Positions 7,477-51,057 of a stretch of DNA of 51,222 nt are shown here, piece by piece. The DNA is from Entrophospora sp. SA101 (taxonomy: Eukaryota; Glomeromycota; Glomeromycetes; Entrophosporales; Entrophosporaceae). The notes under the pieces are model-generated. The model did not search any database. It saw nothing but the letters and a program-made list of their open reading frames with translations, and was not told where the DNA came from. A program made the position numbers and the translations under genes. Numbering within the stretch: position 1 is the first letter of the stretch; each line of letters begins with the position of its first letter. The stretch spans positions 1 to 51,222 of the forward strand of contig CAUDNR010004281.1 in NCBI GenBank assembly GCA_958430865.1, in the 5' to 3' direction.

Positions 7477-7751
7477 TAGTGATGGGAATTTTTAACCACA
7501 CTCTTGATAATTCCAAGTTATTAATTAGTTATTATTAACCACTTATTAACTATTTCATTCTGAGCAAGATCTATTAACCCAAAGAAACCTATATACAGAC
7601 CAAGTCTCCTAATTTGGAAGCCTTATTGTTATTTATTTGCTATAAAAGTTCTTCAAGTTTGTTTTTTTAACACTTAAAATAAGTCACTAATAAAGTCATT
7701 AACTAATTAATAACTTGATCATTTTAAAGATAATTTGTATGTCCATCACTA
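7477..7751. mobile_element. hAT-like MITE candidate (about 275 bp)
   Basis: Perfect 9-bp terminal inverted repeats TAGTGATGG (7477-7485) and CCATCACTA (7743-7751) bound the element. Inside, a perfect 17-bp inverted pair AAGTTATTAATTAGTTA (7515-7531) and its reverse complement (7700-7716) lies asymmetrically. Ends of the form TAGNGATGG are typical of hAT transposons. There is no coding capacity. No clean 8-bp target duplication could be matched in the flanks, so the boundary may be slightly off or the copy old. Confidence 0.5.
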
Positions 7752-20460: not shown

Positions 20461-21689
20461 ATTTTGTGGAATCAAAATTAGTTTATATATTTATTTGGAC
20501 ATTTGGACAATGTAATTAGAAAATTTGGAGTTACATTATAGTAATTGAATAAAACCTTTAGATAATTTATTTATAGTAAATATTTAAAATCTAACAATAC
20601 TAGGTTAATTAATAAATAGATAAAGTTATATTGTCTTTAACGATTAGCTTGGAAACACGCTCTAAAAATCATCGATTAGTTAATATTAAATTCTTTTTTA
20701 AAGAATAGATCGAGATCTTTCAACTGATAAAACCCTCCCTGTTCAAGTTTTTAATTTACATTGGTCCGCGTGAAGATTCAACTAGTATCGGTAGTGCCGG
20801 GTACAGTTAGATGTTTCACCTCTTTGTAGAGTAAATTAATCTATTGCATTATTAACAATTGAAGTTGTAATTATTTTTCCCAAAAAATTTCTATTGATTA
20901 TTATTTTGAGTATATTATAGTTATAATAGACATGCGATGTTAAAATTATTGCTAGAGTAATTTCAAACGCGTGTTTTTACAATTCTAAATTTTCCGCTGT
21001 TACGACACGCACGTATAATGCAAGGCACTTAGTCCCTACAACTTCCTGCGTCACGGTGTCAGTTTCAATTAGTATATACCTTGTCAAAACTCTGACGATT
21101 GGCAAAAACCCTCAAATGCGAAACTCTGCCGAAACTCTAATAAACAATTAATGTGTAACCTGTCGAAACTCTATCGATTGATTTCTGGGGGAGTTTTGCC
21201 CATAACCTTAGTCTTTATTGAGGGGTTGTTGTGATCTTTAAAAAATTGAAATTGTAATTGAATTGATTGTAAATGTTAAAACTGAATAAGTTATATTGAA
21301 AAATAATATGTGAATAATAAAAATTGCTAATATCTTGAATGTGTATAAATAAACACTGTACATTATCTCACACCACTACATTGTGGAATAATGATGTGGG
21401 TTGAAGAATCCCTTTCAAATCTAAACCATACATGTTGGCCAAAATTAATTTAGTAAATGATCATTGCCAAATTCAAAATGCCAAAAATTCTGGGTATATA
21501 GTTTTTTATTTGGCAAATGCAAAACCAATTTTGGCTATCTAAACTAAGATCATGGGTCATAAAATAATGAAAAAACTAAAACTAATACTAATACTAACAC
21601 ATGAGAATTTCCAAACCTTGTCATAACATTACTAAATTTTGATCCCTGTAATTCTTAGTAACAAATGTTCATTTTGGTTTTGTTGCAGT
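20461..21689. other. 1.2-kb spacer with clustered GAAACTCT motifs
   Basis: No gene was recognised. Around 21085-21200 the motif AAACTCT occurs several times (AAAACTCTGACGA, GAAACTCTGCCGAAACTCTA, GTCGAAACTCTATCGA), with an inverted match GAGTTTTGCC at about 21191-21200. This may be a fragment of a transposon end. TTGTTGCAG at 21680-21688 looks like a 3' splice site just before the next ORF. Duplicated at 33131-34359. Confidence 0.5.
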
Positions 21690-21959
21690 ATGCCCCAAAT
21701 GGCAACATTCCAAAAAATCGAACAACAAGTACGAAGAAGCGAAGCAGAGGTTGGAAGGTGGGAGAAGGGAGATAAACAGAAGAAGATAGATGAGTTGTTG
21801 GGAGGAGATGCAGAAAAACGTGAAGGGAAGTTTGATTATTTGATTAACGAGAAGAAGAAGTTGGAGAAGGGCAAGGAAGATTGGAAAGGACAAGTGGTGA
21901 AGTTACAGGATGCATTGACTGAATTTAGTAAAGGAAAAGGCAATGAACAAATTACATAA
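21690..21959 (+). CDS. short Lys/Glu-rich coiled-coil protein, unrecognised (copy 1)
   Basis: 89 codons from the ATG at 21690 (MPQMATFQKIEQQVRRSEAE) to a TAA at 21957-21959. Highly charged and likely coiled coil, with DYLINEKKKLEKGKEDWKG near the C-terminus. The ATG follows directly on TTGTTGCAG, so the frame may be the last exon of a longer gene whose upstream exon I could not find. It resembles the small coiled-coil ORFs common in arbuscular mycorrhizal fungal genomes, but no family can be named. An identical copy lies at 34360-34629. Confidence 0.45.
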   Translation: MPQMATFQKIEQQVRRSEAEVGRWEKGDKQKKIDELLGGDAEKREGKFDYLINEKKKLEKGKEDWKGQVVKLQDALTEFSKGKGNEQIT

Positions 21960-22284
21960 AAAAATATAAAAAATTATTTTCCATTCATTCCATTTCGTTT
22001 TATTTAATTATGAACTTTTATATATTGTGTTATTGTTCATGACTTTAATTTTTATTATTATTTTATAGCTTTTTTACTTGTTATTTGGTATACTGTTTGC
22101 AACCTTGATTAACTTGGGTTTTTTCTTGCAGATAATCAATCAGCCTTCAGTGCCCACTGATGATGTAATGAACCAAAAAAAAAATTCATGAAAGCATTAC
22201 CTTAAAGAAGATTGAAACTATTTCTTTATCTTCATTCAATACCAATTAATTGGCAAAAGTCATGAAACACAACGTAAAAGTTAC

Positions 22285-23034: not shown

Positions 23035-24196
23035 TTCCGAAATTCTTAATTTTTATTATTCTATTATTTTGAATGGATATTTTCCTAATTAATTGAATTG
23101 TATATAAGGAGCTTGAATTCGATGTACTTGAAAAATAACTTTGTGATAAGTTAATTAGTTTCGACTAAATAAACTAAATAAACAAAATAGTAATTATTTT
23201 ATTTAACACCTTTATCTTCTTTAAACAAAATTATCCGCCAATACTAAAATTAATTCGTTGATAACACCTATTCATTCTGATCCACACAAATACAAAAATA
23301 ATTGTTATCACCCATTAAAACACGCTCTCCCAAATTTAATCGGTGACAGTAATATTAATATACAGAAATTATCAATAATCATTTTATAAACGCTGTTGAT
23401 TATTTTTTTTTAATTAGTAATAAATGTATTTATGTTTCAAATTAATAATCTCTCACTCAATTTCATTTATCCCCCCCCCCCAGTTTTTTCACAGAAATTT
23501 AGCAATATCAATATTGTTTAAGTTCTGGGTTCTTTTTCATTTTAAATATTTTTATTAGAAGAAAAATTTGACAAAGAAAACAAAGAAAATTATTTTTTAG
23601 GAAAAGAAATATTTAGGAATTAGGAAAAATGACCTCTCGGACAAATCCTTGATATACAAAGAAAGTATTCCCGAGCCCTATATCTATTCCAAACAAGTTT
23701 CAATTGTAATCCTTGTATAATAGATTAACATTAAGAAAACTCAAAATAAAAAAATCGGCTGAGAGATTGATTTTCCTAGTCCAAATCCCATTTTATGATT
23801 TAATTTTCGCAAATGAATTAACATTTTACTTCATAATTTTGGTTGCCATTAAATTGGCCAGAATTATAAGAGGAACAATTTCAAAATTTTTATAACACAA
23901 CATCATCAATTAACTTGACATGACTCTTGTTGCACTGAATTTATTAAAAAATTCCACATAACTTGATAGCTTTTACTAGAATAATCAATTTACACTGTTT
24001 TTTTTTTAAAAAAAAGTTACATGAAAATTTAACTCGTGTCAATTTAAAGACCAGTTATTTTGGATGTATTACTGTAACACACACTGTAGAGAATTAAAAT
24101 GAAATGCAAACCATTTAAAAATCTTTATTATTATTGAATTGAGCAAGAGTTCCTATTTGTAATACAAATTCTTATTTGAATTATTTGTTTTTTTTT
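23035..24196. other. AT-rich intergenic DNA with a C homopolymer
   Basis: No gene is supported. The run of 11 C at 23471-23481 is one of the two places where the 12-kb repeats were seen to differ. A frame near 23713-23895 has no ATG and looks random. Confidence 0.5.
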
Positions 24197-24241
24197 ATTC
24201 ATTTATTCATTTATTCATTTATTCATTTATTCATTTATTCA
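24197..24241. repeat. 8-bp tandem repeat (ATTCATTT)n
   Basis: About five to six head-to-tail copies of ATTCATTT. It is followed at 24400-24480 by a looser ATTTGTTT/ATTTGAA array. The second 12-kb copy has the same array at about 36866-36910, without a length change I could see. Confidence 0.9.
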
Positions 24242-24599
24242 AATCACCCGAAACATTTGTTTGTCCCTGTAAAAAAAACTGATCTGTGATTAAATAGATC
24301 ATATTCATGAAAAAATCATGGAAAGATTACAGGGGAAAGATGGACTTTGCCACTGTTGCAAATTCATGGAAAATTTTCAGGCAAATAACAGTTTGAATTG
24401 TTCATTTATTTTGTTTATTTGTTTATTTGAACTATTTGTTTTATTTGTTATTTGAATCATTTGAATCATTTGTTTTATTTGCTTTGCTCTCTAAGCTGAG
24501 CAGAGCCAAGTTCAAGAAAATAGATACTTAAATTGTTTTTTAGGTAATATGGGTAAATAAAATAATAAGTTAACATTCATTACTTGAAAAAATTTTATG

Positions 24600-24900
24600 T
24601 AACATCAAACTCTAGCCTGGCTCAAACTTGAAATTTGAGCTTTAGCTCAAGCCAGCTTGGCTTGTTTGGCAAGACAAATGATGAACTGATCACCAATTTA
24701 AAAGCCATTTGCTCCATAAATCCCAAAGTATCCTTGGTGAAAGGTGGTTGTCTGCACTGAGAAATATAATAGTAAACTGTGGATGTTATGGAGTCATCAA
24801 ACATAACTTGTGCAGCCAAAAGACTTTTAAATGTACATCTTGCAAAACTATCATTGACAGAAATGTAAATGGAGCCTGTAATATACCTTTAAAGTAACCC
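24600..24900 (+). pseudogene. TnpB/Fanzor-type (Cas12f-like) zinc-ribbon relic, copy 1
   Basis: A plus-strand frame at 24709-24897 ends with the signature of the C-terminus of TnpB-family RNA-guided nucleases: a zinc ribbon (KTFKCTSCK) followed by the RuvC-III motif as DRNVNGACNIPL, where the usual form is DRDVNGARNI. The first zinc pair is damaged (NCGCYG where CGxCG is expected) and there is no RuvC-I or RuvC-II upstream, so it cannot be active. Just upstream, 24610-24680 holds near-palindromic AGCTCAAGCCAGCTTGGCTTG-like sequence. Such domains occur in IS607-like transposons and in eukaryotic Fanzor proteins; which of the two this came from cannot be settled here. Copy 2 lies at about 37269-37569. 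Confidence 0.6.
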
Positions 24901-25103
24901 AACGAGAGTTGCTAATGTTGTTGGTGCTTACATCTGACACGCCTTATTGCAGGTTGTCTACATAGTGCTTGTACTGAGATATAAGCAGGTTCAAGAAGTT
25001 AATTTTTTTTGGATTAATTTTGTGTAATACAAATTTACTAAGTGATACATGAAGCATTTTTTAAAATTTATAATAAAAAAAATTTTTTCGATTAGAAAAG
25101 CAC

Positions 25104-25586
25104 ATGAATTCCGAAGAAACTATTTTTATTAAATCAGAAAAAGAAACCTACAAAGAGATAAAAGTAGAAAGTATAGAGCTAAAATTTGACAATAATGTTA
25201 CAATATTACGAGATGTAAAAGGCATCTCTTCAAATAGCAATAATAATAATAAATGTTCAAGTAATAAAAGATCTGTTAATAATGTTGATAAAGATCCCGA
25301 AACACTTGCTGCAGAGTTAGCCATTAAAAGAGCAAGAAATACAGATGCTGCTCGTCGTAGTAGACATCGTAAAGTTATGAAAATGGAATCACTTGAAAGC
25401 CAAGTTTCAGAATTATCATCAAAAAACCATACATTAAAAACTCATTTAGCTGTATTGGAAATTGAAATAAAAGGTTTAAATGAGAAAAATGAAGAAAATG
25501 ATTCAAGAATTAAAAAATTAGAAATTCAATTGGCTGAAACTTATGAAAAAATAATTACAGTTGGTAAAAGAACAAAACAAAAATAA
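25104..25586 (+). CDS. bZIP transcription factor, GCN4/CPC1-like (copy 1)
   Basis: 160 residues from ATG (MNSEETIFIKSEKETYKEIK) to TAA. After an acidic and Asn/Ser-rich N-terminal half, the basic region AIKRARNTDAARRSRHRK follows (about residues 73-90), with the Asn, Ala-Ala and Arg contacts of the GCN4 family. A leucine-zipper heptad run comes next (MESLESQVSELSSKNHTLKT) and continues as a coiled coil to the end. GCN4/CPC1 factors activate amino-acid biosynthesis genes on starvation; that role is inference. It is shorter than GCN4, and GATTAG at 25091-25096 could be a splice acceptor, so an upstream exon is possible. Identical copy at 37773-38255. Confidence 0.8.
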   Translation: MNSEETIFIKSEKETYKEIKVESIELKFDNNVTILRDVKGISSNSNNNNKCSSNKRSVNNVDKDPETLAAELAIKRARNTDAARRSRHRKVMKMESLESQVSELSSKNHTLKTHLAVLEIEIKGLNEKNEENDSRIKKLEIQLAETYEKIITVGKRTKQK

Positions 25587-28254: not shown

Positions 28255-31200
28255 ATTGTCATTCATAGAAATTTTAGAATGATTGTTCTTGCTAACAGAC
28301 CAGGTAAATATTCTATTTAATAATGTATTTTATATTTGGCACTTTTAATTAATATTTATTTTTTGGTGATTGTTATTATAGGTTATCCATTTCTTGGTAA
28401 GTAATTGTATTTTGAACTATAGAGTTAACTATTATTATTTACATATGTAAATAACTTAATTTTTATTAATAAAATTTCCTGTTTAGGTAATGATTTTTAC
28501 CGTGAGGTTGGAGATGTTTTTAGTTGGTAATTTTACATTTTTTTTTTTTTTTTTAATATCTATTTTACAAGCTTTGATTGTTTATCATAATAATTAAACT
28601 GGGGTTATTAGTCATGCAGTAGATAATCCTGGTCCAGACTCTGAGATGTTTTTATTACGCAAATATGCACCTGACGTCCCGGAAGATTTATTATTGAAGT
28701 TAACAGCAGCATTTAGTGATTTAAGAAAATTAGTAGACGAGGGATTAATCAGTTACCCTTATTCAACCAGGGAATTGGTTAATGTTGTTAAACATATGCA
28801 GGTCCTTAAGTGTTTCACGCTTGATAATTTTTTATATTTATCATATCCTACTTATTATTAATATATTATTTTCCATAGGAGTTTCCTAAAGAAGGCATTG
28901 CACGTATTTTACAAAATATTTTTGATTTTGATCAATATGATCAAGAGTCAAAAGAGCTTTTGTTCAAGGCTTTTGAAAAGCATGGAATACCTGTTGCGCT
29001 AGAATCGGAGTTTATGATAAATTTAGGTGAAAAAATATCATTAAGTGATCCAATTGTAACGGAGGTTTGGACAAAAACCGGAAATAAAATTAAATATTGT
29101 GAAATTAAAAAAGAAGAAATTTTAATGAAAGTAAGATTAAGTAAAGTTTATATAGACTTGTTTTGGAAATTTTAATTAGAATTTTTTTAAAGTTGAAATT
29201 TTATAAAGGATGGTTGGGAAATTCCAGTTGGAACCCCTAAAGAGCTTGAAAGGACTGAAGGTAATTCAAATTTTTGATTGATGATTGAATAAATGAATGA
29301 ATTATATTTAGACGATTTCATTATTATATTAATTTTTTGTTTGTCTTTATTCCTATTTATTTATTTATTGTATTTCTTAGGCAGAACCATGACCTTTACT
29401 GAACAGACATACAGTTTTAAAATACCTACACGCGGGGAAGCATTAGACATAGTAGGATTGTCTGATGGATCTTTATTTGTTGTTACGACAAATCCTATTA
29501 CATTACACGCAATTAATCAAAATCATCGAAAAATTAGAAGCATGGATTTGTATGAATATTTTCCATTACAAAAAGGTAACAAGTAAAACTTAATTTTAGA
29601 AATTTTGATATTGTATTTAATCGTTGTTATAATTTTGTAGCACCACCAGGGTTAAAGATGACAATAGTACAAACACAAGAAAATGGCTGGTATTTGTTAT
29701 TGCATGATCCAATAGCAAATTCACTGCTTTGCATTGACTTTGCAAGAAGTCCAAAAATGTCTGTCTTGGTTTTTTTAAATAAAATCCCTGTAATTATTAT
29801 TTGATAATATAAAGATGAGATAATTGTATAATTGCTTTTATATACTAATTTCTTGTTTTTAAAAACAATTTATAGTTGACAGGGTTAAATCCAACAAAAT
29901 CTGTAATGCTAAAAGATTTTGAATCTACTGGTATTTTAGGTAATTATATTACTATATTTTGTTTAATTTAATATATTTGATGTTTTACTAAATATATATA
30001 CGCATTTAAAGTTTTCTACCAGAGCGAAAGATCAACTATTCTAATGTTAGATTTTAATATAAATACAATGTATACAATTGAAGTGCCTGTTAAAAGTAGG
30101 TTTTCAAGCCTCTTAACATATATTTTTTTCAATTAATGATTAATTACAATAATTTTCTAATTATAATTAAAATGTAGTTTCAAAATTATTTTTGCTTAAA
30201 CCAAATGCATGGTTACTCAGAGATAGTGTTAGCGGGCATTATCATATCGTTTACGCAAATAACCTTGATGGGCAGAATTTGTAAATATTCTACATTTAAA
30301 AAGAGGGTTTTTAATTTAAAATAACTAATTATCCGAATATATTTATTAGGGTTCCAAACATCATACTGCAAATTGATATAAAGAGTTTGCTGAAGCCTAT
30401 CCCAGATGAAATTACTTTCATATCCCAAGATGTATTTCAACAAGCAAGTTTGTAAGTATTGTATTGATTTTTTTCTTAGATGTATGGTAATGAAAATTGC
30501 AATTTCTAATTATTTGATTATTAAAATATAAATTAGCATGTCTACAAGATTTTTACAAAGTAATGATGATTCTATAGCTGCTTCTATTATTTTAAATTCG
30601 CCCGAGACTTTGGTTGACGATATTAAAACTGAAATCATTTCATATATGAGAAAGCCTGGAGATGATTGCAAAAATTGTTTCAATGATCTTAAAAATTCCT
30701 CTATATCGCTTAAGAAGACAGGACAATTGGCAACTGTTATTCCATTAAAGGTATTAATGATAATTATATTTATTAATGAATTTTCAAAATATTTTATCGA
30801 AATTAAAATTTTTTTAAAAAAGGACGGGAGAAGTGTAGGAAATTTAGAGATATTTAATCCTGTTGAAAATGCGTTATGGCGCATTACAATTCCTTTATCA
30901 ATCCAAGTGCCTAGTTTCAGCATAAGGTATACATCAAACAAATTATTTATTTAAATATTAAATTACGTTACAATAACACTGATGTACAAATAAATAAATA
31001 TTATTATATTAGTGATTCAAGACCTATCGAAAATCCCTATTTATATTTTGATAGAATAGCAGCAACACTGTTAGAATTACCTAATGGAGATTTATTAACA
31101 ATGGATATTAGTGGTAAGTATACGAGTTTATATGATTGATGAGGCTTAATGTTATTTACGTATTTAAAAAAACCTTCCCTAATTTAGGCGTTGTGCGTAT

Positions 31201-33130
31201 ATGGCAAGTGGACGCTGGTCAATTAATTTTGGCTGCCAATACTTGGAGAAAACTCGTTGGAAATCTAGATCAGCAAAAGTTGTCGATTATATACGAAACT
31301 GATGAGGTTATTAGGATTTGATTAATGTGACATTATTTTATGTAATGTTTTTTAAAAAAAAATTAATAATAAAAAAATAGGAAAAATTTTCAAGGGAAAG
31401 ATTCGGGAATGAGGTTCAACAAATATTTCAAGACAGGATCGGTGAAAATATTGGAAGTGGCGAAGGTGGAGGTGAAGGTGAAGGCGGCGGCGAAGGATCT
31501 GGTAGTGGTAATGGCGGAGATGGTGGCGATTCATTGAATTTAATGGGTAGAGAACCTACCTTTATAGATGTTAGTAAACTGAGTTTGGTAAGTGGATTTT
31601 TATTATAATTGGTATTTATACGTTTAGATTATTAAATGAATTGTCATGAATAGAGAACTGAAATCCCACCACCTATCAAACTTACAGCAGCACAAAGGTT
31701 TTTGATTTCTAAAAACAAATAATTGCTCAATTTAACAATCATACAATCAATCATCTAATAATCTTTTTTTTTTTAAAAAATACAGAGATTTGCATGAGTT
31801 GACTATGCGTAAAAAACGAGAACAAATAAATATGACACAAGAAAATATGAATTTATTTCAATCATATTTAGTGAATGTGCAAAAGGAGATTCATGAATTG
31901 CGTGTGATTTTGGAAAGTATAGAGGCTAAAAAAAAAGAACGTGTTTGGCTTAAGAATCAAAGTTCTGGAGATATTGATGATACTAAACTGTAAGGATTTT
32001 TGATAAAATCTATGCAATATTTTTTTTTGTCTAAATATGCAAGTTTATTGATATACGATCATATAACCGCATATACATAGGATTGAAGGATTGACTGGAG
32101 AAAGTAATATTTATAAGAGACGTGGTGATAATGATCCTGATTTAGGTTTTTTTCAGGATAAACCTAAAAAAATGGTTTTTGCTTTTGATCTTAGTGCAAG
32201 GTATAAATTTTAACAAAAAAATTAAGAATAAAATTAGAATTTAAAACATTACTTTATTTTTTATAATTAGTATGTTTAGGTTTAATTCTCACGATAGAAG
32301 ATTAGATAGATCTATGGAAGTGGCACTTAGTAAGTGATAATTGTTAATTAAAAATGTTAAATTTGAATTGTAATTACTTATTTTGATTTTACTTTAAAAA
32401 TAGTGATAATGGAATCGTTTAAATCATTTGAGAATAAATTTCAGTACCGTATTGTTGGGCATAGTGGAGATTCACCGAATGTAGAATTTGTTAAAGAAGG
32501 AAAATATCCACGAAATGAAAAGGAAGAGTTCAAAATATTAAGCCAAATGTATTTACACTCGCAATTTTGCCTCAGCGGCGGTAAGATCTCATGTTAAAAT
32601 TTTTTAGTTTTTAATAATAGGCATGATTATTCTTAAAATTTATTCTTTGAATAATAAAGACAATACTCTAAATGCAACGGCTAATGCTATAAAAGAAATA
32701 ACAAAAGAAGAGGCTGATGACTATTTCGTTGTAATACTTTCTGATGCAAACATCGCACAATATAACATTAATCCAACGGATATTTCAAAAAGTATGTAAT
32801 TAATTTATTATTATACGTAGATGCACGTATATTTACGTATATATTAACGTCATTGATTCAATTAGCACTAAAATCAGATGATAGAGTGAATGCATTTATA
32901 ATATTCATTGGATCTATACAAAATCAAGCCGAAAGGTATTTATTTATAATTTTCAATTTATTAATAAGATTATTAAGTCAATTAACCATTTTTCTACTTT
33001 TGATTTATACTAAAATAATAATGAAAGACTTCGTGATAGTCTTACCGGGCATGCACATGTTTGTATGGATAATAAGGATTTACCGAAAATTATGAAATCA
33101 ATTTTTTTAGCTTCAATGTTAAAAGGCTAA
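28255..33130 (+). pseudogene. VWA8, 5'-truncated duplicate
   Basis: Carries the VWA8 exons from VIHRNFRMIVLANRPG onward, including the Gly/Glu-rich linker, the coiled coil and the MIDAS-type VWA domain, with all splice sites unchanged from copy 1. The first two AAA modules and the Walker A and B of the third are absent. The frame entering from the spacer has a TAA shortly upstream and no ATG. The first in-frame ATG (in FRMIV) would give a protein with no ATPase P-loop. Sequence identity to copy 1 means there has been no time for decay. Confidence 0.93.
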
Positions 33131-34359
33131 ATTTTGTGGAATCAAAATTAGTTTATATATTTATTTGGACATTTGGACAATGTAATTAGAAAATTTGGAG
33201 TTACATTATAGTAATTGAATAAAACCTTTAGATAATTTATTTATAGTAAATATTTAAAATCTAACAATACTAGGTTAATTAATAAATAGATAAAGTTATA
33301 TTGTCTTTAACGATTAGCTTGGAAACACGCTCTAAAAATCATCGATTAGTTAATATTAAATTCTTTTTTAAAGAATAGATCGAGATCTTTCAACTGATAA
33401 AACCCTCCCTGTTCAAGTTTTTAATTTACATTGGTCCGCGTGAAGATTCAACTAGTATCGGTAGTGCCGGGTACAGTTAGATGTTTCACCTCTTTGTAGA
33501 GTAAATTAATCTATTGCATTATTAACAATTGAAGTTGTAATTATTTTTCCCAAAAAATTTCTATTGATTATTATTTTGAATATATTATAGTTATAATAGA
33601 CATGCGATGTTAAAATTATTGCTAGAGTAATTTCAAACGCGTGTTTTTACAATTCTAAATTTTCCGCTGTTACGACACGCACGTATAATGCAAGGCACTT
33701 AGTCCCTACAACTTCCTGCGTCACGGTGTCAGTTTCAATTAGTATATACCTTGTCAAAACTCTGACGATTGGCAAAAACCCTCAAATGCGAAACTCTGCC
33801 GAAACTCTAATAAACAATTAATGTGTAACCTGTCGAAACTCTATCGATTGATTTCTGGGGGAGTTTTGCCCATAACCTTAGTCTTTATTGAGGGGTTGTT
33901 GTGATCTTTAAAAAATTGAAATTGTAATTGAATTGATTGTAAATGTTAAAACTGAATAAGTTATATTGAAAAATAATATGTGAATAATAAAAATTGCTAA
34001 TATCTTGAATGTGTATAAATAAACACTGTACATTATCTCACACCACTACATTGTGGAATAATGATGTGGGTTGAAGAATCCCTTTCAAATCTAAACCATA
34101 CATGTTGGCCAAAATTAATTTAGTAAATGATCATTGCCAAATTCAAAATGCCAAAAATTCTGGGTATATAGTTTTTTATTTGGCAAATGCAAAACCAATT
34201 TTGGCTATCTAAACTAAGATCATGGGTCATAAAATAATGAAAAAACTAAAACTAATACTAATACTAACACATGAGAATTTCCAAACCTTGTCATAACATT
34301 ACTAAATTTTGATCCCTGTAATTCTTAGTAACAAATGTTCATTTTGGTTTTGTTGCAGT
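33131..34359. other. spacer, duplicate of 20461-21689
   Basis: Same content as in copy 1, including the AAACTCT cluster. The A at 33580 (G at 20910 in copy 1) is one of two differences noticed between the repeats. Confidence 0.5.
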
Positions 34360-34629
34360 ATGCCCCAAATGGCAACATTCCAAAAAATCGAACAACAAGT
34401 ACGAAGAAGCGAAGCAGAGGTTGGAAGGTGGGAGAAGGGAGATAAACAGAAGAAGATAGATGAGTTGTTGGGAGGAGATGCAGAAAAACGTGAAGGGAAG
34501 TTTGATTATTTGATTAACGAGAAGAAGAAGTTGGAGAAGGGCAAGGAAGATTGGAAAGGACAAGTGGTGAAGTTACAGGATGCATTGACTGAATTTAGTA
34601 AAGGAAAAGGCAATGAACAAATTACATAA
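34360..34629 (+). CDS. short Lys/Glu-rich coiled-coil protein, unrecognised (copy 2)
   Basis: Identical to the 89-codon ORF at 21690-21959, with the same putative splice acceptor directly before the ATG. See that entry for its features. Confidence 0.45.
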   Translation: MPQMATFQKIEQQVRRSEAEVGRWEKGDKQKKIDELLGGDAEKREGKFDYLINEKKKLEKGKEDWKGQVVKLQDALTEFSKGKGNEQIT

Positions 34630-34954
34630 AAAAATATAAAAAATTATTTTCCATTCATTCCATTTCGTTTTATTTAATTATGAACTTTTATATATTGTGT
34701 TATTGTTCATGACTTTAATTTTTATTATTATTTTATAGCTTTTTTACTTGTTATTTGGTATACTGTTTGCAACCTTGATTAACTTGGGTTTTTTCTTGCA
34801 GATAATCAATCAGCCTTCAGTGCCCACTGATGATGTAATGAACCAAAAAAAAAATTCATGAAAGCATTACCTTAAAGAAGATTGAAACTATTTCTTTATC
34901 TTCATTCAATACCAATTAATTGGCAAAAGTCATGAAACACAACGTAAAAGTTAC

Positions 34955-35704
34955 ATGTCTTATATCCAAAAGCATCTGAATCCATTACCAAAAATCACAA
35001 TACTTGAACTTGATGTCACAACCAATAAGATTTTACTTAGATTGTATAATGACTCATGTCTACTATTCAACTTATCTATGGCACTGATGTTGTTCTGGGC
35101 CAAACTGCTGCCCAACCAAGGAATAAAATATAAGAAAAGAAGTCAGGAACAAGATAGTGTTACCACCCTAGCTAGTCAAAAACGAAAAGCAGAAGACTAT
35201 CTAGAAGAATTTAGAATATGGCGATATGAAACAGTGAAACTGCCTGAAATACAAGGAAGTGTTGAGGAAAGGTTAAACGACCTAGTAGACAAATTGATAA
35301 ATCGAAAGTATAATGTTGCTTTCGAATACTACTATGTCCTTGGGAAACTTTTATTAGAAAGTCCTTCAACCTACAAAGCCAGGATAGTTCAACGTTTAGA
35401 TCAATTTAAAGGAATTAGGATGGCCAACATAGTGAGAAGAACTCATACGCTATTTAGAGTGGTGGGACTATCTTACTTAACAATAAAGAAATCAACCCCT
35501 ACGACCTTGGGAAAATTTACAGATAAAGATTTTGAAGAGTTCATTTCAAGATTAAGGATGATCATGATGGAAAATCTAGAACAACAACTACTTCTAGACA
35601 GTGCCATAGAAGAAACTGTTCCTATTTCGACGGAGCTCAATGTTGGTGAGGGAGAGATGTTACCGGAATTAGATTTGGACGCTCTTTTGGCTGAAATTAA
35701 CTAA
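34955..35704 (+). CDS. uncharacterised 249-residue protein (copy 2)
   Basis: Identical in sequence to the intronless gene at 22285-23034. If both copies are real, the organism carries two identical genes about 12.7 kb apart. Confidence 0.5.
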   Translation: MSYIQKHLNPLPKITILELDVTTNKILLRLYNDSCLLFNLSMALMLFWAKLLPNQGIKYKKRSQEQDSVTTLASQKRKAEDYLEEFRIWRYETVKLPEIQGSVEERLNDLVDKLINRKYNVAFEYYYVLGKLLLESPSTYKARIVQRLDQFKGIRMANIVRRTHTLFRVVGLSYLTIKKSTPTTLGKFTDKDFEEFISRLRMIMMENLEQQLLLDSAIEETVPISTELNVGEGEMLPELDLDALLAEIN

Positions 35705-37268
35705 TTCCGAAATTCTTAATTTTTATTATTCTATTATTTTGAATGGATATTTTCCTAATTAATTGAATTGTATATAAGGAGCTTGAATTCGATGTACTTG
35801 AAAAATAACTTTGTGATAAGTTAATTAGTTTCGACTAAATAAACTAAATAAACAAAATAGTAATTATTTTATTTAACACCTTTATCTTCTTTAAACAAAA
35901 TTATCCGCCAATACTAAAATTAATTCGTTGATAACACCTATTCATTCTGATCCACACAAATACAAAAATAATTGTTATCACCCATTAAAACACGCTCTCC
36001 CAAATTTAATCGGTGACAGTAATATTAATATACAGAAATTATCAATAATCATTTTATAAACGCTGTTGATTATTTTTTTTTAATTAGTAATAAATGTATT
36101 TATGTTTCAAATTAATAATCTCTCACTCAATTTCATTTATCCCCCCCCCCAGTTTTTTCACAGAAATTTAGCAATATCAATATTGTTTAAGTTCTGGGTT
36201 CTTTTTCATTTTAAATATTTTTATTAGAAGAAAAATTTGACAAAGAAAACAAAGAAAATTATTTTTTAGGAAAAGAAATATTTAGGAATTAGGAAAAATG
36301 ACCTCTCGGACAAATCCTTGATATACAAAGAAAGTATTCCCGAGCCCTATATCTATTCCAAACAAGTTTCAATTGTAATCCTTGTATAATAGATTAACAT
36401 TAAGAAAACTCAAAATAAAAAAATCGGCTGAGAGATTGATTTTCCTAGTCCAAATCCCATTTTATGATTTAATTTTCGCAAATGAATTAACATTTTACTT
36501 CATAATTTTGGTTGCCATTAAATTGGCCAGAATTATAAGAGGAACAATTTCAAAATTTTTATAACACAACATCATCAATTAACTTGACATGACTCTTGTT
36601 GCACTGAATTTATTAAAAAATTCCACATAACTTGATAGCTTTTACTAGAATAATCAATTTACACTGTTTTTTTTTTAAAAAAAAGTTACATGAAAATTTA
36701 ACTCGTGTCAATTTAAAGACCAGTTATTTTGGATGTATTACTGTAACACACACTGTAGAGAATTAAAATGAAATGCAAACCATTTAAAAATCTTTATTAT
36801 TATTGAATTGAGCAAGAGTTCCTATTTGTAATACAAATTCTTATTTGAATTATTTGTTTTTTTTTATTCATTTATTCATTTATTCATTTATTCATTTATT
36901 CATTTATTCAAATCACCCGAAACATTTGTTTGTCCCTGTAAAAAAAACTGATCTGTGATTAAATAGATCATATTCATGAAAAAATCATGGAAAGATTACA
37001 GGGGAAAGATGGACTTTGCCACTGTTGCAAATTCATGGAAAATTTTCAGGCAAATAACAGTTTGAATTGTTCATTTATTTTGTTTATTTGTTTATTTGAA
37101 CTATTTGTTTTATTTGTTATTTGAATCATTTGAATCATTTGTTTTATTTGCTTTGCTCTCTAAGCTGAGCAGAGCCAAGTTCAAGAAAATAGATACTTAA
37201 ATTGTTTTTTAGGTAATATGGGTAAATAAAATAATAAGTTAACATTCATTACTTGAAAAAATTTTATG
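35705..37268. other. spacer, duplicate of 23035-24599
   Basis: Contains the shortened C run (10 C at 36141-36150) and the (ATTCATTT)n array at about 36866-36910. No gene was seen. Confidence 0.5.
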
Positions 37269-37569
37269 TAACATCAAACTCTAGCCTGGCTCAAACTTGA
37301 AATTTGAGCTTTAGCTCAAGCCAGCTTGGCTTGTTTGGCAAGACAAATGATGAACTGATCACCAATTTAAAAGCCATTTGCTCCATAAATCCCAAAGTAT
37401 CCTTGGTGAAAGGTGGTTGTCTGCACTGAGAAATATAATAGTAAACTGTGGATGTTATGGAGTCATCAAACATAACTTGTGCAGCCAAAAGACTTTTAAA
37501 TGTACATCTTGCAAAACTATCATTGACAGAAATGTAAATGGAGCCTGTAATATACCTTTAAAGTAACCC
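37269..37569 (+). pseudogene. TnpB/Fanzor-type zinc-ribbon relic, copy 2
   Basis: Same sequence as the relic at 24600-24900: KTFKCTSCK followed by the RuvC-III-like DRNVNGACNI at about 37498-37557, with a damaged first zinc pair. Not a functional nuclease. Confidence 0.6.
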
Positions 37570-37772
37570 AACGAGAGTTGCTAATGTTGTTGGTGCTTAC
37601 ATCTGACACGCCTTATTGCAGGTTGTCTACATAGTGCTTGTACTGAGATATAAGCAGGTTCAAGAAGTTAATTTTTTTTGGATTAATTTTGTGTAATACA
37701 AATTTACTAAGTGATACATGAAGCATTTTTTAAAATTTATAATAAAAAAAATTTTTTCGATTAGAAAAGCAC

Positions 37773-38255
37773 ATGAATTCCGAAGAAACTATTTTTATTA
37801 AATCAGAAAAAGAAACCTACAAAGAGATAAAAGTAGAAAGTATAGAGCTAAAATTTGACAATAATGTTACAATATTACGAGATGTAAAAGGCATCTCTTC
37901 AAATAGCAATAATAATAATAAATGTTCAAGTAATAAAAGATCTGTTAATAATGTTGATAAAGATCCCGAAACACTTGCTGCAGAGTTAGCCATTAAAAGA
38001 GCAAGAAATACAGATGCTGCTCGTCGTAGTAGACATCGTAAAGTTATGAAAATGGAATCACTTGAAAGCCAAGTTTCAGAATTATCATCAAAAAACCATA
38101 CATTAAAAACTCATTTAGCTGTATTGGAAATTGAAATAAAAGGTTTAAATGAGAAAAATGAAGAAAATGATTCAAGAATTAAAAAATTAGAAATTCAATT
38201 GGCTGAAACTTATGAAAAAATAATTACAGTTGGTAAAAGAACAAAACAAAAATAA
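37773..38255 (+). CDS. bZIP transcription factor, GCN4/CPC1-like (copy 2)
   Basis: Identical to the bZIP gene at 25104-25586, with the same basic region and zipper. It lies about 1.5 kb upstream of the intact eIF4A start, so the bZIP-eIF4A neighbourhood here is probably the ancestral arrangement. Confidence 0.8.
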   Translation: MNSEETIFIKSEKETYKEIKVESIELKFDNNVTILRDVKGISSNSNNNNKCSSNKRSVNNVDKDPETLAAELAIKRARNTDAARRSRHRKVMKMESLESQVSELSSKNHTLKTHLAVLEIEIKGLNEKNEENDSRIKKLEIQLAETYEKIITVGKRTKQK

Positions 38256-44511: not shown

Positions 44512-46649
44512 ATGCTTCCTATTGACCCTGATAATATATTTTCACGTCATAATGACAAAAAACAAAATTATAATCATCGATTTGACAAAACATCACAAGA
44601 TTCTTCTGACACAGATAGTGATAATTCAATTATTACAACACTTACTCCAACAACTACTAAAAACCATCAAAAGATAATAATTGAAGAAATTGGGAAGAAA
44701 AAGAAATTTCCTAGATTTGCTGAAATAGTTAAAACTGGCAGTTTTGAACCCGAACGTCATTTTTATCCCCGTGTTTTAAATGCTACAATTCATCCTTTGG
44801 TTGCAAGCTTCTTTCAATTGGGTAATGAACGTATAATAGCAAGATATACTCATTTAAATCCTAGAGTGTCATTAAACACTCTTACTGATTTATTATCAAG
44901 ATATAAACCTAAACATTTTCGTTGGGCAGGTTAGTTTCTTTTTTTATAAAGAACTTCTTTATTATCATTAATTGACGTTGATAAAAACAATATTTTTAAA
45001 ATTAATACATCAAAAGATTTTGATTTATTCTTTGTAATTAGTTACTTTATTTTAAATTTTTTATTGACCACTGTTGATAATATTTTCTCTCCATGTTAAT
45101 AAGCATCATCAACGTTCACTGTTTATACATGAACTATATTTTCAATTGGTTTTCAAAATAATAATTATTCATATATTACTATTATTAATATAATAAATAG
45201 GATCAGACCTATTCAATGTTACGACAGTCAATGGTCAACGTCAAATGATTATTGTTGAGACCAATTCATGCCCATCAGGACAAAAGTCAATGCCATTATT
45301 GTCTGATACTGATGAATATGGTGGATATCAAGTAGTCATAGAATCTGCATTTAAAGAGGCTATAGAAAAGGCAGATCCTTCCTTAGGAGACTTAGCAGTC
45401 ATATGTGATAAAAATTTAATGGAAACATCAGGTTATGCTACTGCATTGGCTGAAGTCATGCAGGAAAAGGTTTGGTTTGTACAATACTATGACGATGATG
45501 ACGATCCTCCAGTTAAATGGATTGATCGAGTTATGTATATAAGAGATATTAACAACGGTTTGTATTTAAATAATTTAATTAATATATGATATTTATATTA
45601 TTAATATATACATATTTATTTATTTACTTTATAGAATGGCATTCAATCAGAGCATGTTTCCGTTATGTTACTCAAAGACCATGGAATCGCATCCCTCTTA
45701 GTACTCGTACAATAGTAATGAATGAAATAGTCTCTTGTCTTGCTGGTGGTCGTAACAAAATGATGGCTGACAGAGCCTATGAATTCTTCAATGCTGAATT
45801 AGTGGATACTGGTTTGGCTATCAGAGTACCTGAAACAATCAACAATGTTACCAGAAGTGAAATTCCATTATGGATTCATAGTATGGGTGGTCATGCTGTA
45901 TTAAAAGTGCCATATAGTAATGCTGGTAACTATTAATAAATAAATATTATTATTACTTATAATTTAATAAATTTAATAATAATAATATTACTATTATTAG
46001 GTCAAGGTGTCTACACAATAACAAATCCACAAGAACTTCAAGAATTTCTAGACAAAGATCATCATTATGACAAATTTATTGTACAATCATTGGTTGGTAA
46101 TGCATCATGGTCATCTGTCACAAGGTCTGGAAAGTTTTATCATGTAGGAACAATTCCAAACAAACGTAATCATACTTATGTAAGTGATCTTCGTATGATG
46201 ATAACAGCTGGTAAAAATGGCTTTCAACCTGTAAGCATTTATGCAAGAAGAGCAAGAAAACCTCTTTTGAGTCATCTAGAAGATGATCCATCAAGTATTT
46301 ATCCTTCATTAATATATTTTTTGATTTTATTTATATTTTTTATTAATAATCAATGTATTTTAAAACAGTAACTTCTTGGGAAATGTTAGGCACAAATTTA
46401 TCTGTAAAAAAAGCTGATGGTGAATGGTCATCAGAATCAGAACGGTTATTGTTGATGGACCGTAAAGATTTTAATCAATTAGGCATAGGAGTTGATGATT
46501 TGATAGATGCTTATGTACAGACTTGTTTAGCAGTTATTGCAATTGATAAAATGTGTCAAAAGTTGATGCCAGAAGAAGGAAAATTTGATTTTAATTTATT
46601 CAGAGCTTTAAATCCTGATGAAACTTTGTTATCAGAAATATTAGAGTAA
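44512..46649 (+). CDS. conserved uncharacterised protein, ATP-grasp-like
   Basis: Five exons join in phase: 44512-44929, 45201-45557, 45635-45925, 46001-46294, 46369-46649, giving 546 residues. The N-terminal 45 residues are Ser/Thr/Asp-rich and probably disordered. The folded part begins [20 protein letters not shown]. Conserved-looking stretches are [67 protein letters not shown] and [10 protein letters not shown]. The E-x-N-x-x-P pattern, the KFIVQ strand and the later basic [12 protein letters not shown] segment recall ATP-grasp ligases, but this is inference from pattern only. I recall similar fungal proteins without an assigned function. Its 3' half is duplicated at 49923-50429. Confidence 0.72.
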
Positions 46650-47310
46650 ACACTTTATAGGAGCAAAGTAAGGATAAATTTTCTAATACACAAATATAAA
46701 TAATCGTATTTATATATACTTATATATATATATTCAATTATTTCTTTTACAACTGCCTGTTTATTATTTTGGGATTGTACGTTAGCTTTAATAATTATTT
46801 TTTTTTTAATATCATGTTTCAATAACAATAGAAATGATGGAATTTCTTATTTACATAATAATATTCAATAAACTTTGTAATCGCACAGTTTTTAATTTGC
46901 TATCCATCAGTTGTCAATATCCATAAACTTTTATTAGGAACAAGACAAACTAAATAGTAACCTTCATTCCATTAAAGAATATTTTTTTCTATTAAATTAT
47001 CAGTAATACCATGTGCAGATTATTATTTAAACTTTTGCCATCCAACAGTCACCAATACCCATAAAGTTTTATCAGAAGCAAAGTCTTTAGTATAACAGTT
47101 TCTTATTAACTGAGAGATCAAATTTTTAATATTACAATTTTATGAGAAATCGCAAAGCAATGTTTACTTTCTATAACTTAAACCAATTAATTTAAATATT
47201 CATGTTTACTTGAGACAAATACATATATATATAGTAACTTTTTACTATCTGTTTATATTAAAGAATTTTTAGGTAGATGCATCTTTATCGGTTGGAAAAA
47301 TTTTATTTGT
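46145..47310 (+). repeat. about 1.15-kb direct repeat, copy A
   Basis: Starts within exon 4 of the ATP-grasp-like gene (TGTAGGAACAATTCC) and runs through exon 5, the stop and about 650 bp of 3' flank. It matches 49922 to about 51057. Within the flank, two diverged segments (about 46900-46945 and 47035-47080, each with a CCATAAA(C/G)TTTTAT core) form an internal tandem repeat. Confidence 0.9.
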
Positions 47311-47508
47311 GTATTATTATTAATAATAAATGATTGATAATAAAGTACGAGTTTTTATATATGGGGCATGCTGCAACAAAACCAGACAAAGTGAACATTG
47401 GTATTACCAAAGATTCAGGGATCAAAATTTAGTCATAATGTGATTATATAATTAACAGTTTTATAATTAAGTGATATATAGAACTATCCCTATATAAAAA
47501 TAGTTAAT

Positions 47509-47775
47509 ATGAAACTCATTTACATCAGATCTACTATGGAACCCAAGAATTATAGTACTATCAGAAGTATTTTGAAGAAAGAGCAAGGTGAAAAAATTGC
47601 ACCTTATATTTTCAAAATAAATGATACTCAAACACTGGAAGCTTATCTAAGAAAAGAAAGGATTACTTATGAAATTTACCAAGAAGAAAGAAAATTAATA
47701 AACATTAGAAAAAGAAAGCATCATGATGATGCATTATTACCTAATAAAAAGCAAAAGTCTCTAAAAAGAAAATAA
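47509..47775 (+). CDS. small basic hypothetical protein
   Basis: 88 codons from ATG (MKLIYIRSTMEPKNYSTIRS) to TAA, ending in a Lys/Arg-rich tail (NIRKRKHHDDALLPNKKQK) that could be a nuclear-localisation or nucleic-acid-binding segment. It contains no Trp and no internal TGA, so it does not tell which genetic code applies. It converges with the TGA-recoded ORF at 47812-48426, 36 bp away, and lies in the insert between the 1.1-kb repeats. It could belong to the same foreign segment or be fungal. No family was recognised. Confidence 0.35.
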   Translation: MKLIYIRSTMEPKNYSTIRSILKKEQGEKIAPYIFKINDTQTLEAYLRKERITYEIYQEERKLINIRKRKHHDDALLPNKKQKSLKRK

Positions 47776-47811
47776 CTACCATTTTCTTTGATAATTTCAA
47801 TTTATACAGAA

Positions 47812-48426
47812 CTACTTTTTTATTTTCAATCAAGATCATCTTTTAGTCTCTTTGACTTCAATTTGAGCAGTTAATTGACCATTTTGTTGATCTTTTAATT
47901 TCCTGTTTTCTTCTTCTAGATGATTAATTTTCTCTTCTAAACTTTTTATCTTATCTAATAACTCCTGTTTTTGCTTTTTACTTCACTCTTCTGATTTTTC
48001 CTGAAATTTGGCTACTTCTTCTCTTTCAATTTTTAATTCTTCTTTGGTAATTGATAACTCTTTTTCTAGTTCTCTAGTTTTATTTTCTAGGCGAAAACTG
48101 AAAGTTTGTGAAAGTAGTTCTTTGTCAGAAAGTGGTTTAGTTGATTTAGCTTTTAAATGACTACAAAAACATCTGTTTCTATTCCTTTTTAACCTACCAC
48201 ATTTCTCACATCATGGAAGAGTATTATTATCATAATCTTTTTTACATTCACCACAGATAAAGACAATGTCAGAATAACCATCAGGAGTATTACGAGCCAC
48301 CATTTGATGAGTAGCAGGAGCAGTATCAAAATTAAGGAGAGTTGGGTCATCAAAATCTAGAAAACAAAAATTACACTCTTGTTCATCTCCCTGGGTTATT
48401 TCCAGAATTCTATATTCTAATCTCAT
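47812..48426 (-). CDS. TGA=Trp ORF B: Cys-rich coiled-coil protein, mollicute-like
   Basis: Read with TGA as Trp (genetic code 4) this is a 204-codon ORF from ATG at 48426 (MRLEYRILEITQGDEQE) to a TAG at 47812-47814. In the standard code it is cut to 71 residues at 48211. In-frame TGAs lie at 48211-48213, 47983-47985, 47836-47838 and 47830-47832. The N-terminal half has paired cysteines (CNFC, CGEC, CEKCGR, CFCSH), and the first TGA sits inside this cluster, in LP-W-CEKCGR, where a Trp fits. This looks like a zinc-binding module. The rest is a Lys/Glu-rich coiled coil (EEKINHLEEENRKLKDQQ). Its start is 6 bp after the stop of ORF A, as in a bacterial operon. Function unknown. Confidence 0.8.
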
Positions 48427-48432
48427 ATTTGC

Positions 48433-49242
48433 TTACTTATTCTTTTGAACAATAAAAGTCTGGAACTTCTCTTTAGTCTTTTCTTTTACTTTATTTACTA
48501 ATTTTTTGAGTTTGCATAATCTGTTTTCTTTTTGTTGTTTTGGTAAAGCTGGTAATTCTTTGGTTGTTAAATAATCTTTTCAGTTTGTTTCCTGATTTTT
48601 AGCAGCTAAATTATTTTCTAATAAATCTATTCGGTCTTGAAGTTTGCCCATTGCAGCATCATGTTTCAACACAGTTTCAAACATTTGTCATTTTCTCCAT
48701 TCCATGGCTTTATTTAGTGCTTTTTCAGCCTCTTCTCGCTCCATTCATACTTCATCATCTAACTCTTCTACTCTTGCTTCCAATTCCTCCTTTTTTGTCT
48801 CTAATTCCTCAATATTTCCTTCATAATCTCTCTTTTGTTCATAAAGTTTTCCATTAGTTCTGCTTCATTTTCCAACATAATCTAACCATTGTGAACTTAA
48901 TTCATTAGAACTATCAATAAAACCTTCTAACATTTCTTCAATTGTAATGTTATCTAATCAAATTCTTTTACAATTCTTAGCTCATTCCCTAGTTTCATTA
49001 GGATCTACTGCCATTATTAATTTGCCTTCATCCATTCATTTCTTGTTTAGTTTCTTATATCATCTTGTTCCTGTAGGAGCATACATACTAGCTTTACCCT
49101 TTTCATCAATAGACTGACCAGTAACATGTCAGATTTTTAGTTTAAGATTTTCTTCTTTATCTGCTAATTGCTTCTTTAAATTTTCATTTTCTTCTAATAG
49201 TTGTTTATTTCTCTCTTGGAATTCATTTATTGTATTTACCAT
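48433..49242 (-). CDS. TGA=Trp ORF A: coiled-coil protein, mollicute-like
   Basis: Read with TGA as Trp this is a 269-residue ORF from ATG at 49242 (MVNTINEFQERNKQLLEE) to TAA at 48433-48435. Nine in-frame TGAs (ending at 49129, 49060, 49036, 48982, 48958, 48865, 48745, 48688, 48580) and two TGG occur, with no internal TAA or TAG. Recoded residues fall in natural contexts such as GTR-W-YKKLNKK-W-MDEGK and AMEWRK-W-QMFETV. Layout: N-terminal coiled coil, a compact central part (residues about 35-130) and a second Glu/Lys coiled coil, then a basic tail. No family was recognised. A/G-rich AAAAAAAGAAAATC precedes the ATG and is at best a weak ribosome-binding site. It is followed by ORF B after 6 bp. 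In the fungal nucleus neither ORF could be translated in full. Confidence 0.82.
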
Positions 49243-49388
49243 GATTTTCTTTTTTTATTTATTTGCTCTTTTAATATACTAATGTACTTTTATGAGGGTA
49301 TATAAATTATTTTAGTACTTTTTTACTTTAAAAGTGGAAAAAGATTAATGGGTGGCAAAGTCATGGAAGTGATTTTATTCCAAATATT

Positions 49389-49922
49389 TTATTTGTTGCC
49401 AGCATAGGATGGTCTTGGGCAAGTAGTATCTTTGTATTCATCTTTCACAAATGGGCGAATATTGTTATAAAGGTATTCTTGCCTTTTGTAGTCCAAAGGA
49501 GGTGGGATTAACACTAAAATAGATAAAGCTCTAATTTCTTCAAAAATATCTGCTTTCTTGATTTTCAATAAATTGAATTCAGCAAAAGGTCCATTAGCAA
49601 CTTCTTGAACTTTCACTGTACCAAGATTAGATGCTTCAAAAAGAAAATGTTGATATTTCTGTATACTTGGTAATTTCTTAAAATAAATTCCCAAAATAGC
49701 TTTAATATCTAAGTATTGAAAACCTCTTCCACCTTTATAACATTGAGCTTTATTCAATCCTGCTGGACTTGATCTTTTCACAACTTCCACAACATGATCC
49801 ACACAATCTACACTTGTTTTCTATAAAGTTTTTTAATCGATCCAAAACTACCATCACATTTGAATTTGGTGTGTCCAGGAATCATGAAATTCAATTCAAC
49901 ACTTTCATAATATCCACAAATT
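49389..49922 (-). pseudogene. DUF7869-type transposable-element protein, C-terminal fragment
   Basis: A minus-strand fragment begins at the repeat junction (ICGYYESVELNFMIPGHTKF) and runs to a TAA at 49389. FMIPGHTKFKCDGSFGSIKK, then SVDCVDHVVEVV, KYQHFLFEA and PPLDYKRQEYLYNNIRP with a DTTCPRPS end match the order of the DUF7869 domain, found in large numbers in transposon-like genes of arbuscular mycorrhizal fungi. A one-base loss near 49808 (AGAAAACAAG) puts the two parts in different frames, and the N-terminal region is missing where the 1.1-kb repeat starts. It is therefore a dead fragment and clearly fungal, in contrast to the adjoining TGA-recoded ORFs. Confidence 0.65.
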
Positions 49923-51057
49923 TGTAGGAACAATTCCAAACAAACGTAATCATACTTATGTAAGTGATCTTCGTATGATGATAACAGCTGGTAAAAATGG
50001 CTTTCAACCTGTAAGCATTTATGCAAGAAGAGCAAGAAAACCTCTTTTGAGTCATCTAGAAGATGATCCATCAAGTATTTATCCTTCATTAATATATTTT
50101 TTGATTTTATTTATATTTTTTATTAATAATCAATGTATTTTAAAACAGTAACTTCTTGGGAAATGTTAGGCACAAATTTATCTGTAAAAAAAGCTGATGG
50201 TGAATGGTCATCAGAATCAGAACGGTTATTGTTGATGGACCGTAAAGATTTTAATCAATTAGGCATAGGAGTTGATGATTTGATAGATGCTTATGTACAG
50301 ACTTGTTTAGCAGTTATTGCAATTGATAAAATGTGTCAAAAGTTGATGCCAGAAGAAGGGAAATTTGATTTTAATTTATTCAGAGCTTTAAATCCTGATG
50401 AAACTTTGTTATCAGAAATATTAGAGTAAACACTTTATAGGAGCAAAGTAAGGATAAATTTTCTAATACACAAATATAAATAATCGTATTTATATATACT
50501 TATATATATATATTCAATTATTTCTTTTACAACTGCCTGTTTATTATTTTGGGATTGTATGCTAGCTTTAATAATTACTTTTTTTTTTTAATATCATGTT
50601 TCAATAACAATAGAAATGATGGAATTTCTTATTTACATAATAATATTCAAATAAACTTTGTAATCACAGTTTCTAATTTGCTATCCATCAGTTGTCAATA
50701 TCCATAAACTTTTACTAGGAACAAGACAAATTAAATAGTAACCTTCATTCCATTAAAGAATATTTTTTTCTGTTGAAATTATAGTAACACTAGATGCAGA
50801 TTATTGTTTAAACTTGCAGTTGCCAATACCCACAAAGTTTTATTAGAAGCAAAGCCTTTAGTATAGCAATTAAGAGATCAAATTTTTAATATTATAACTT
50901 TATGAGAAATTGTAAAAGCAATGTTTGTTTTATATAATTTAATCTAATTAATTCAAATATTCATGAGGTTTACTCGAGACAAATACATTATATATATAGT
51001 AACTTTTTTACTATATATTAAGGTAGATGCATCTTTATTAGTCGGAAAAATTTATTT
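49922..51057 (+). repeat. about 1.15-kb direct repeat, copy B
   Basis: Second copy of 46145-47310. The exon and intron part looks identical except one synonymous change (GGA to GGG in the codon before KFDFN), while the 3' flank past about 46770 / 50550 has many substitutions and indels. Confidence 0.9.
49923..50429 (+). pseudogene. ATP-grasp-like gene, 3' fragment
   Basis: Contains the last 152 bp of exon 4 (to about 50074), the intron and the complete exon 5 (50149-50429) of the gene at 44512-46649. Exons 1-3 and the start codon are absent; upstream lies the DUF7869 fragment in opposite orientation. It cannot make the protein. Confidence 0.92.

Follow-up and report, generated by a model that had tools for sequence, protein, structure and literature searches.

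A copy of a dispersed element, whose genes carry TGA at tryptophan positions, was found in the arbuscular mycorrhizal (AM) fungus Entrophospora sp. SA101, on a stretch of 51,222 nucleotides (nt) of contig CAUDNR010004281.1 (the window). The copy occupies positions 47359-49922, and its right part, with most of a transposase-like gene, is gone. The element is repeated and likely mobile, and we hold with moderate confidence that it belongs to a predicted transposon family which was likely shaped by translation in Mollicutes-type endobacteria and was repeatedly inserted into fungal chromosomes. The initial annotation of this DNA had placed the feature at 47812-49242, where two minus-strand open reading frames (ORFs) of 269 and 204 amino acids (ORF-A and ORF-B) were described. 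These ORFs are indeed there, but the feature is larger and also includes an 88-amino-acid ORF and the end of the transposase-like gene.

ORF-A and ORF-B together contain 13 in-frame TGA codons and no internal TAA or TAG, are separated by 6 nt and terminate at TAA and TAG, respectively, just as had been described. From stop to stop they span 273 and 206 codons. Runs of at least 150 codons that are open in genetic code 4 (TGA = Trp) number 15 in the window, and when the window was simulated 40 times with a Markov model the longest run was 268 codons (median of the longest runs, 157); the lengths by themselves are weak to modest evidence for genes. The two ORFs go beyond chance because their relatives are conserved and many genomic copies agree in having TGA at these Trp positions. 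Public full-length relatives reach 94% identity for ORF-A and 97% for ORF-B.

The codons aligned with Trp were counted in 20 loci and the window; the loci were picked as good matches, pieces shorter than 40 amino acids were dropped, and overlapping pieces may have been counted twice. In the three genes together 194 of the 306 Trp-aligned codons were TGA and 3 were TAA or TAG. The TGA share was 112/194 in ORF-A (with one TAG and one TAA), 65/79 in ORF-B (with one TAA) and 17/33 in the transposase-like gene. Stops away from the Trp sites made up 32 of 4408 codons in ORF-A, 29 of 4065 in ORF-B and 21 of 4773 in the transposase-like gene; 21 of those in ORF-A were TGA, 11 of them at Arg. Two sites of the transposase-like protein were followed individually. 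Among 102 lower-ranked relatives (P0207-P0308) site 237 was Trp in 94 of the 95 aligned sequences, while site 333 was Trp in 57, Phe or Tyr in 31 and another residue in 8 of the 96 aligned. In the counted loci TGA stood at site 237 in 6/6 and at site 333 in 6/7 cases (one TCA), and seven copies chosen as near-intact had TGA at both sites without exception. In the same seven copies sites 110, 158 and 424 alternated between TGA and TGG.

The terminators, where they could be read (n = 53; three more were unreadable), were TAA in 42 cases and TAG in 11, and never TGA. The median ratio of nonsynonymous to synonymous substitution rates (dN/dS) under code 4 was 0.22 for the transposase-like gene (14 copies, 91 pairs), 0.31 for ORF-A (20 copies, 174 pairs) and 0.27 for ORF-B (19 copies, 163 pairs); the medians cover pairs with dS above 0.05, stop codons being skipped, and the pairs are not independent. 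TGA at Trp sites, absence of TGA terminators and selection in code 4, as expected of code-4 genes, were all observed. Thus TGA = Trp is a trait kept by selection in this family, which points to translation in a code-4 compartment. The initial reading of TGA as Trp in these ORFs is borne out by the Trp-site counts, the terminators, the homologues and the dN/dS values.

Published gene models seem to be affected by this codon usage. When 15 named AM-fungal gene models from this clade were compared, not one had Trp at site 333 (14 gaps and one Ile); of 11 further clade proteins, 10 had it. Four models from three genera (Ambispora twice, Gigaspora and Diversispora) show a common break in the alignment, at residues 329 to 357, as would arise if the gene callers had spliced round a stop. 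This is a warning for annotation: all the named AM-fungal models compared lack the Trp adjoining the first of the predicted catalytic Asp residues. Two further clade members, P0194 and P0195, lie on JGI contigs whose lengths reach 65 and 84 kb; their ORFs begin just past site 158 and have Trp at sites 237 and 333, and they are perhaps TGG versions.

The pairing of ORF-A and ORF-B, which had been likened to a bacterial operon, recurs in other copies of the family. In 34 pairs, defined by an ORF-A match reaching residue 269 and an ORF-B match starting at residue 1 (shorter alignments being omitted, and some pairs likely being copies of one locus), the distance including the stop was 9 nt in 17 pairs, 4 in 12, 8 in three, 5 in one and 12 in one. 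In one omitted pair (C1539/L037) a spacing of 8 nt was read from its frames. The layout is operon-like, and tightly spaced same-strand genes under selection fit bacterial or organellar translation.

ORF-A encodes a coiled-coil-like protein with nothing above the cut-off in Pfam. Its relatives P0042, P0050 and P0059 are 329-361 amino acids long, differ in their middle segments and are modular coiled-coil-like proteins. ORF-B has Cys pairs, in our reading zinc-ribbon-like, followed by a long predicted coiled-coil helix (mean pLDDT 69, low confidence). NCBIfam and PHROGs gave at best weak matches of coiled-coil type, far under the cut-off where one exists. The 88-amino-acid ORF contains no Trp codon and is therefore readable alike in both codes. 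Its Lys/Arg-rich C-terminus resembles, as we read it, a nuclear signal; it had no Pfam match above the cut-off and none in NCBIfam or PHROGs at an E-value of 0.01.

By profile score the third gene is assigned to DUF7869 (PF25273), the proteins of loci L022 and L037 scoring 62.3 and 59.4 bits at a cut-off of 26. Its product is predicted to have a DDE/integrase-like core with an RNase H-like fold, and thus to be a DDE-type transposase acting on the ends of the element. In 51 sequences D432 and E356 were invariant, and D311 and D390 were at least 90% conserved. In the model D311, D390 and D432, as candidate catalytic residues, stand at the ends of core strands or before a core helix. The resemblance in fold to DDE/D transposases such as Mos1 and SETMAR/Metnase, and to retroviral integrases, all with the RNase H fold, is a prediction: Foldseek with the model returned no hit with an E-value of 0.001 or less (the best, 3.9e-3, was the nuclease NurA), and no solved structure was matched by sequence. 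This profile is shared by DUF7869 proteins from other organisms as well as AM fungi, named Rhizophagus members being 35-38% identical to the third-gene protein. Many DUF7869 matches in the Entrophospora genome are stop-free, with open frames of, for example, 598-632 amino acids. Unlike these standard-code genes, the clade of the element has TGA at Trp sites and is accompanied by ORF-A and ORF-B in the loci read.

In the 101-Mb assembly of this genome at least 151 matches to ORF-A and at least 160 to ORF-B were obtained by scoring the best first-look candidates, and 76 matches to the third gene, every one of which lists at least one TGA. These are match counts, not copy counts, since one copy may give several matches and some contigs repeat each other. 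Copies with TGA as their only stop include C783 (ORF-A, 89% identical), C693 (ORF-A residues 1-193, 91%) and C1529 (ORF-B, 94%); others contain TAG and TAA besides TGA, and the suggestion that the DNA arrived too recently for any other stop to appear does not hold for the family.

BLAST comparison with 20 fetched loci (5-10 kb) revealed a shared left boundary at window position 47359, while in other loci the homology passes 49922 into the third gene. The 15 printed left junctions open with GGGGCATGCTGCAACAAAACCAGACAAAGTGAACAT, with small variants and a small gap in L036, and their flanks are of 14 different kinds, one being common to L025 and L026. When the left-end DNA was searched for, all 40 scored candidates were positive among 1436 first-look candidates, the remainder being unscored; there are therefore probably hundreds of ends. 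All 25 stretches examined have an inverted core, ATGTTCACTTTGT, close to where the third gene starts, a count which is not independent because 20 of them were found with a query containing the core. In two rounds of fetched right arms the right end and a target duplication were not found; the homology continues for about 2.4 kb, and no conserved ORF is evident in it. Nested in the right arm of L022, at about 7360-7480, is a small repeat bounded by terminal inverted repeats (ACCGTAAAGTCTGG...). Between L021 and L022 dS is 0.009 in ORF-B and 0.135 in ORF-A, by which comparison these copies are mosaic and recombined.

In a tree of ORF-B (16 own copies and a sample of database matches) the copies of this genome fall into several clades among other proteins, including Entrophospora, Gigaspora, Funneliformis and Ambispora models; in that of the transposase, a model from Gigaspora rosea falls among the seven own copies. 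This pattern would fit repeated entry from a diverse pool or an old amplification. Related gene models sit on contigs of several AM fungi, and clade members occur on long contigs of other projects, for example on a Geosiphon contig of 1.19 Mb. The many dispersed copies, the sharp left end and the involvement of other AM fungi speak against the lone recent transfer of bacterial DNA which the initial annotation had proposed.

Mollicutes-related endobacteria use code 4, which agrees with the quoted annotation setting. They would be the translating compartment because a spacing of 4-12 nt between ORF-A and ORF-B suits bacterial and not nuclear translation, and because AM-fungal mitochondria probably use UGA for Trp little. 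According to an excerpt of PMC10470734, both codons stand for Trp in fungal mitochondria, UGA included, and UGA is rare in AM-fungal mitoviruses; Gigaspora margarita mitoviruses are described as lacking UGA in an excerpt of PMC7082362, and mitovirus codon usage is reported, in the title of a cited paper, to parallel that of host mitochondria. The rarity of UGA in mitoviruses thus speaks against mitochondria and leaves the Mollicutes-related endobacteria. These bacteria are reported, in part of PMC10507103, to have acquired genes from these fungi. They are the best candidate donor, plausible and undemonstrated.

According to the proposed mechanism, a transposon with a DDE transposase would live in a code-4 endobacterium and would use its own ends to enter the fungal chromosomes repeatedly; the nuclear copies would then be unreadable to the nucleus, their genes being read as broken, and would decay. 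The element could have reached the nucleus by the release of its DNA and protein from the bacterium, with the help of related standard-code DUF7869 transposases in the nucleus, or through decoding of UGA by the fungus itself. A stronger version, which we regard as possible but doubtful, is a two-compartment transposon, whose proteins can be made only in code-4 endobacteria while its DNA inserts and persists, probably in hundreds of places, in the nucleus, so that the bacterium reshapes the chromosomes of its host.

Several observations weigh against an endobacterial origin. The sharp left end at many nuclear-looking sites indicates transposition there, where a TGA-laden gene should fail, and the weakest step is how a transposase that the nucleus could not make produced so many nuclear ends. 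No relative was found in two scans of GTDB genome contigs (weak ones, with one and two short patterns, in a collection that may lack endobacterial genomes) or in four scans of IMG/VR. Plasmids searched with the transposase and ORF-B and phages searched with ORF-B gave no match, and an origin from either was rejected on this ground. No named endobacterium occurred among the matches listed (71 of 71 for ORF-A, the best 120 of 220 for ORF-B and the best 120 of 272 for the transposase). The names in these lists are those of AM fungi and, for the transposase, also of two Nitrososphaeraceae proteins from metagenome-assembled genomes, most matches being nameless; the named members of the transposase family are mainly eukaryotic. 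Thus, of the endobacterial origin proposed initially, the plausibility stands, but these searches yielded no relative. Neutrality after insertion, expected as dN/dS near 1 in near-identical pairs, was considered and left unused, since the five pairs with dS of 0.035 or less gave mixed values (0.42, 0.97, 0, 0.92 and 0.39). In a control, 20 of 71 reverse-transcriptase matches in the same genome had stops, namely 19 TGA, 3 TAG and 3 TAA; TGA being the commonest decay stop in this genome (19 of 25), a naive reading of the TGA codons is weakened.

This last result favours a decayed nuclear transposon in the standard code, the TGAs being mutations of CGA or products of a process like repeat-induced point mutation (RIP), as do the Arg positions of many stray TGAs of ORF-A. 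In six fetched reverse-transcriptase stretches, judged by eye, TGA stood three times at Arg, once at Glu and never at Trp, two being unassigned. The TGAs of the element are concentrated at Trp codons and rare elsewhere, no gene ends in TGA and dN/dS is low. RIP-like or CpG decay as their chief cause was rejected because they sit at Trp codons, and we consider a decayed standard-code transposon extremely improbable. A nuclear transposon amplifying itself while the fungus decodes UGA as Trp, by readthrough or a suppressor tRNA, is better supported. It would explain the sharp left end and the numerous left-end candidates, the low dN/dS, the mainly eukaryotic named relatives of the transposase and the named AM-fungal clade members on long contigs. 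However, as many as 13 sites in two genes would have to be read through, and ORF-B, so close behind ORF-A on the same strand, would have no ordinary translation route. The tRNA scan of the 20 loci and the window detected a single tRNA-Val (in L034, none in the window), so a suppressor tRNA borne by the element was ruled out in the scanned loci. Furthermore, the standard code leaves DUF7869 genes and host ORFs of this genome uninterrupted, and four of the six reverse-transcriptase stretches retain TGG (11 codons altogether). Nuclear decoding is therefore, in our judgement, unlikely.

A mitochondrial element, with nuclear copies transferred as mitochondrial DNA, is rather more unlikely still. 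The decoding of UGA in fungal mitochondria and the compact same-strand genes would suit it, but the scarcity of UGA in the mitoviruses mentioned above does not, and a sharp left end speaks against random fragments. To our knowledge, a DUF7869 transposase is not among mitochondrial genes. A match to cox1 was absent from the assembly. Random joining of endobacterial DNA fragments to the nucleus, in which no transposition takes place, would account for code-4 genes adjoining eukaryotic-type genes; since the left boundary is identical at 15 junctions with 14 different flanks and the gene set recurs many times, we find it very improbable. Finally, endobacterial sequences are published in AM-fungal or Mucoromycota assemblies, according to parts of PMC11423566 and PMC10507103, which could suggest a chimera of endobacterial and fungal reads. 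Such a chimera, which the initial annotation had named as fatal to its own reading, is hardly credible given the number of sites, their different flanks and the clade members on long contigs elsewhere.

The features of the window are collected below. ORFs of the window match DEAD-box helicase, bZIP, 5'-nucleotidase C-terminal and AAA_5 domains; the flanks of the element encode eukaryotic-type proteins, and the fungal setting noted initially is supported. The stop codon of the transposase remnant is the TAA at 49389-49391. A host unit flanks the element copy on both sides and may have been duplicated in tandem, the element lying at the junction. The window also contains a segmental duplication, 17843-25583 and 30513-38252 (offset about 12.67 kb), in which the ORFs are equal in length and in their first 60 residues, a bZIP gene being included.

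Features of the element copy and of related sequences in the window
Feature	Position	Strand	Remarks
Element copy, truncated (TGA = Trp family)	47359..49922		Left boundary common to other contigs; elsewhere homology extends beyond 49922
Left terminal sequence GGGGCATGCTGCAACAAAACCAGACAAAGTGAACAT...	47363..47410	+	15 printed left junctions begin here within a few bases
88-amino-acid ORF	47509..47775	+	12/16 aligned copies stop-free
ORF-B, 204 amino acids in code 4	47812..48426	-	4 TGA, terminator TAG
ORF-A, 269 amino acids in code 4	48433..49242	-	9 TGA, terminator TAA
C-terminal remnant of DUF7869 transposase-like gene	49389..49933	-	By tblastn; corresponds to L022 protein residues 427-607
Host sequence unit, left copy	46143..47308	+	92.8% identity to 49923-51057
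Host sequence unit, right copy	49923..51057	+	Starts at the element cut-off point
Diverged left-end remnant of the element family	21636..21700	-	About 80% identical
Second diverged left-end remnant	34306..34370	-	Within the duplicated host segment

An element family with a eukaryotic-type transposase-like gene, present at many sites of nuclear-looking contigs and selected under a code that is not known from the nucleus, would directly trace the traffic of DNA between endosymbiont and host chromosomes, and the TGA or TGG state of each copy could help to date and place its last translation. If the two-compartment reading is true, the element is of a categorically new kind; since standard-code ribosomes cannot make its transposase, the nuclear copies would preserve, across AM fungi, durable evidence of translation by bacteria. 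A search of the open-access literature by title and abstract opening returned no such element and no DUF7869, which does not imply that it is unpublished.

One close comparison is the gene exchange between Mollicutes-related endobacteria and Mucoromycota (MGMT, PknD), where DNA crosses between the same kinds of partners; as far as the excerpt of PMC10507103 describes it, single genes moved there from host to bacterium, whereas here a multicopy element is found in fungal DNA. Mitovirus-like sequences, derived from a virus of a UGA = Trp compartment, have been found in other genomes, according to part of PMC4393810. Such nuclear copies are fragments of RNA viruses, while the present element carries a transposase-like gene of its own and has a defined end. 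In Blastocrithidia the nuclear DNA itself has UGA read as Trp, as stated in an excerpt of PMC12153298; there the nuclear code is altered, whereas in Entrophospora other genes of the genome are open in the standard code.
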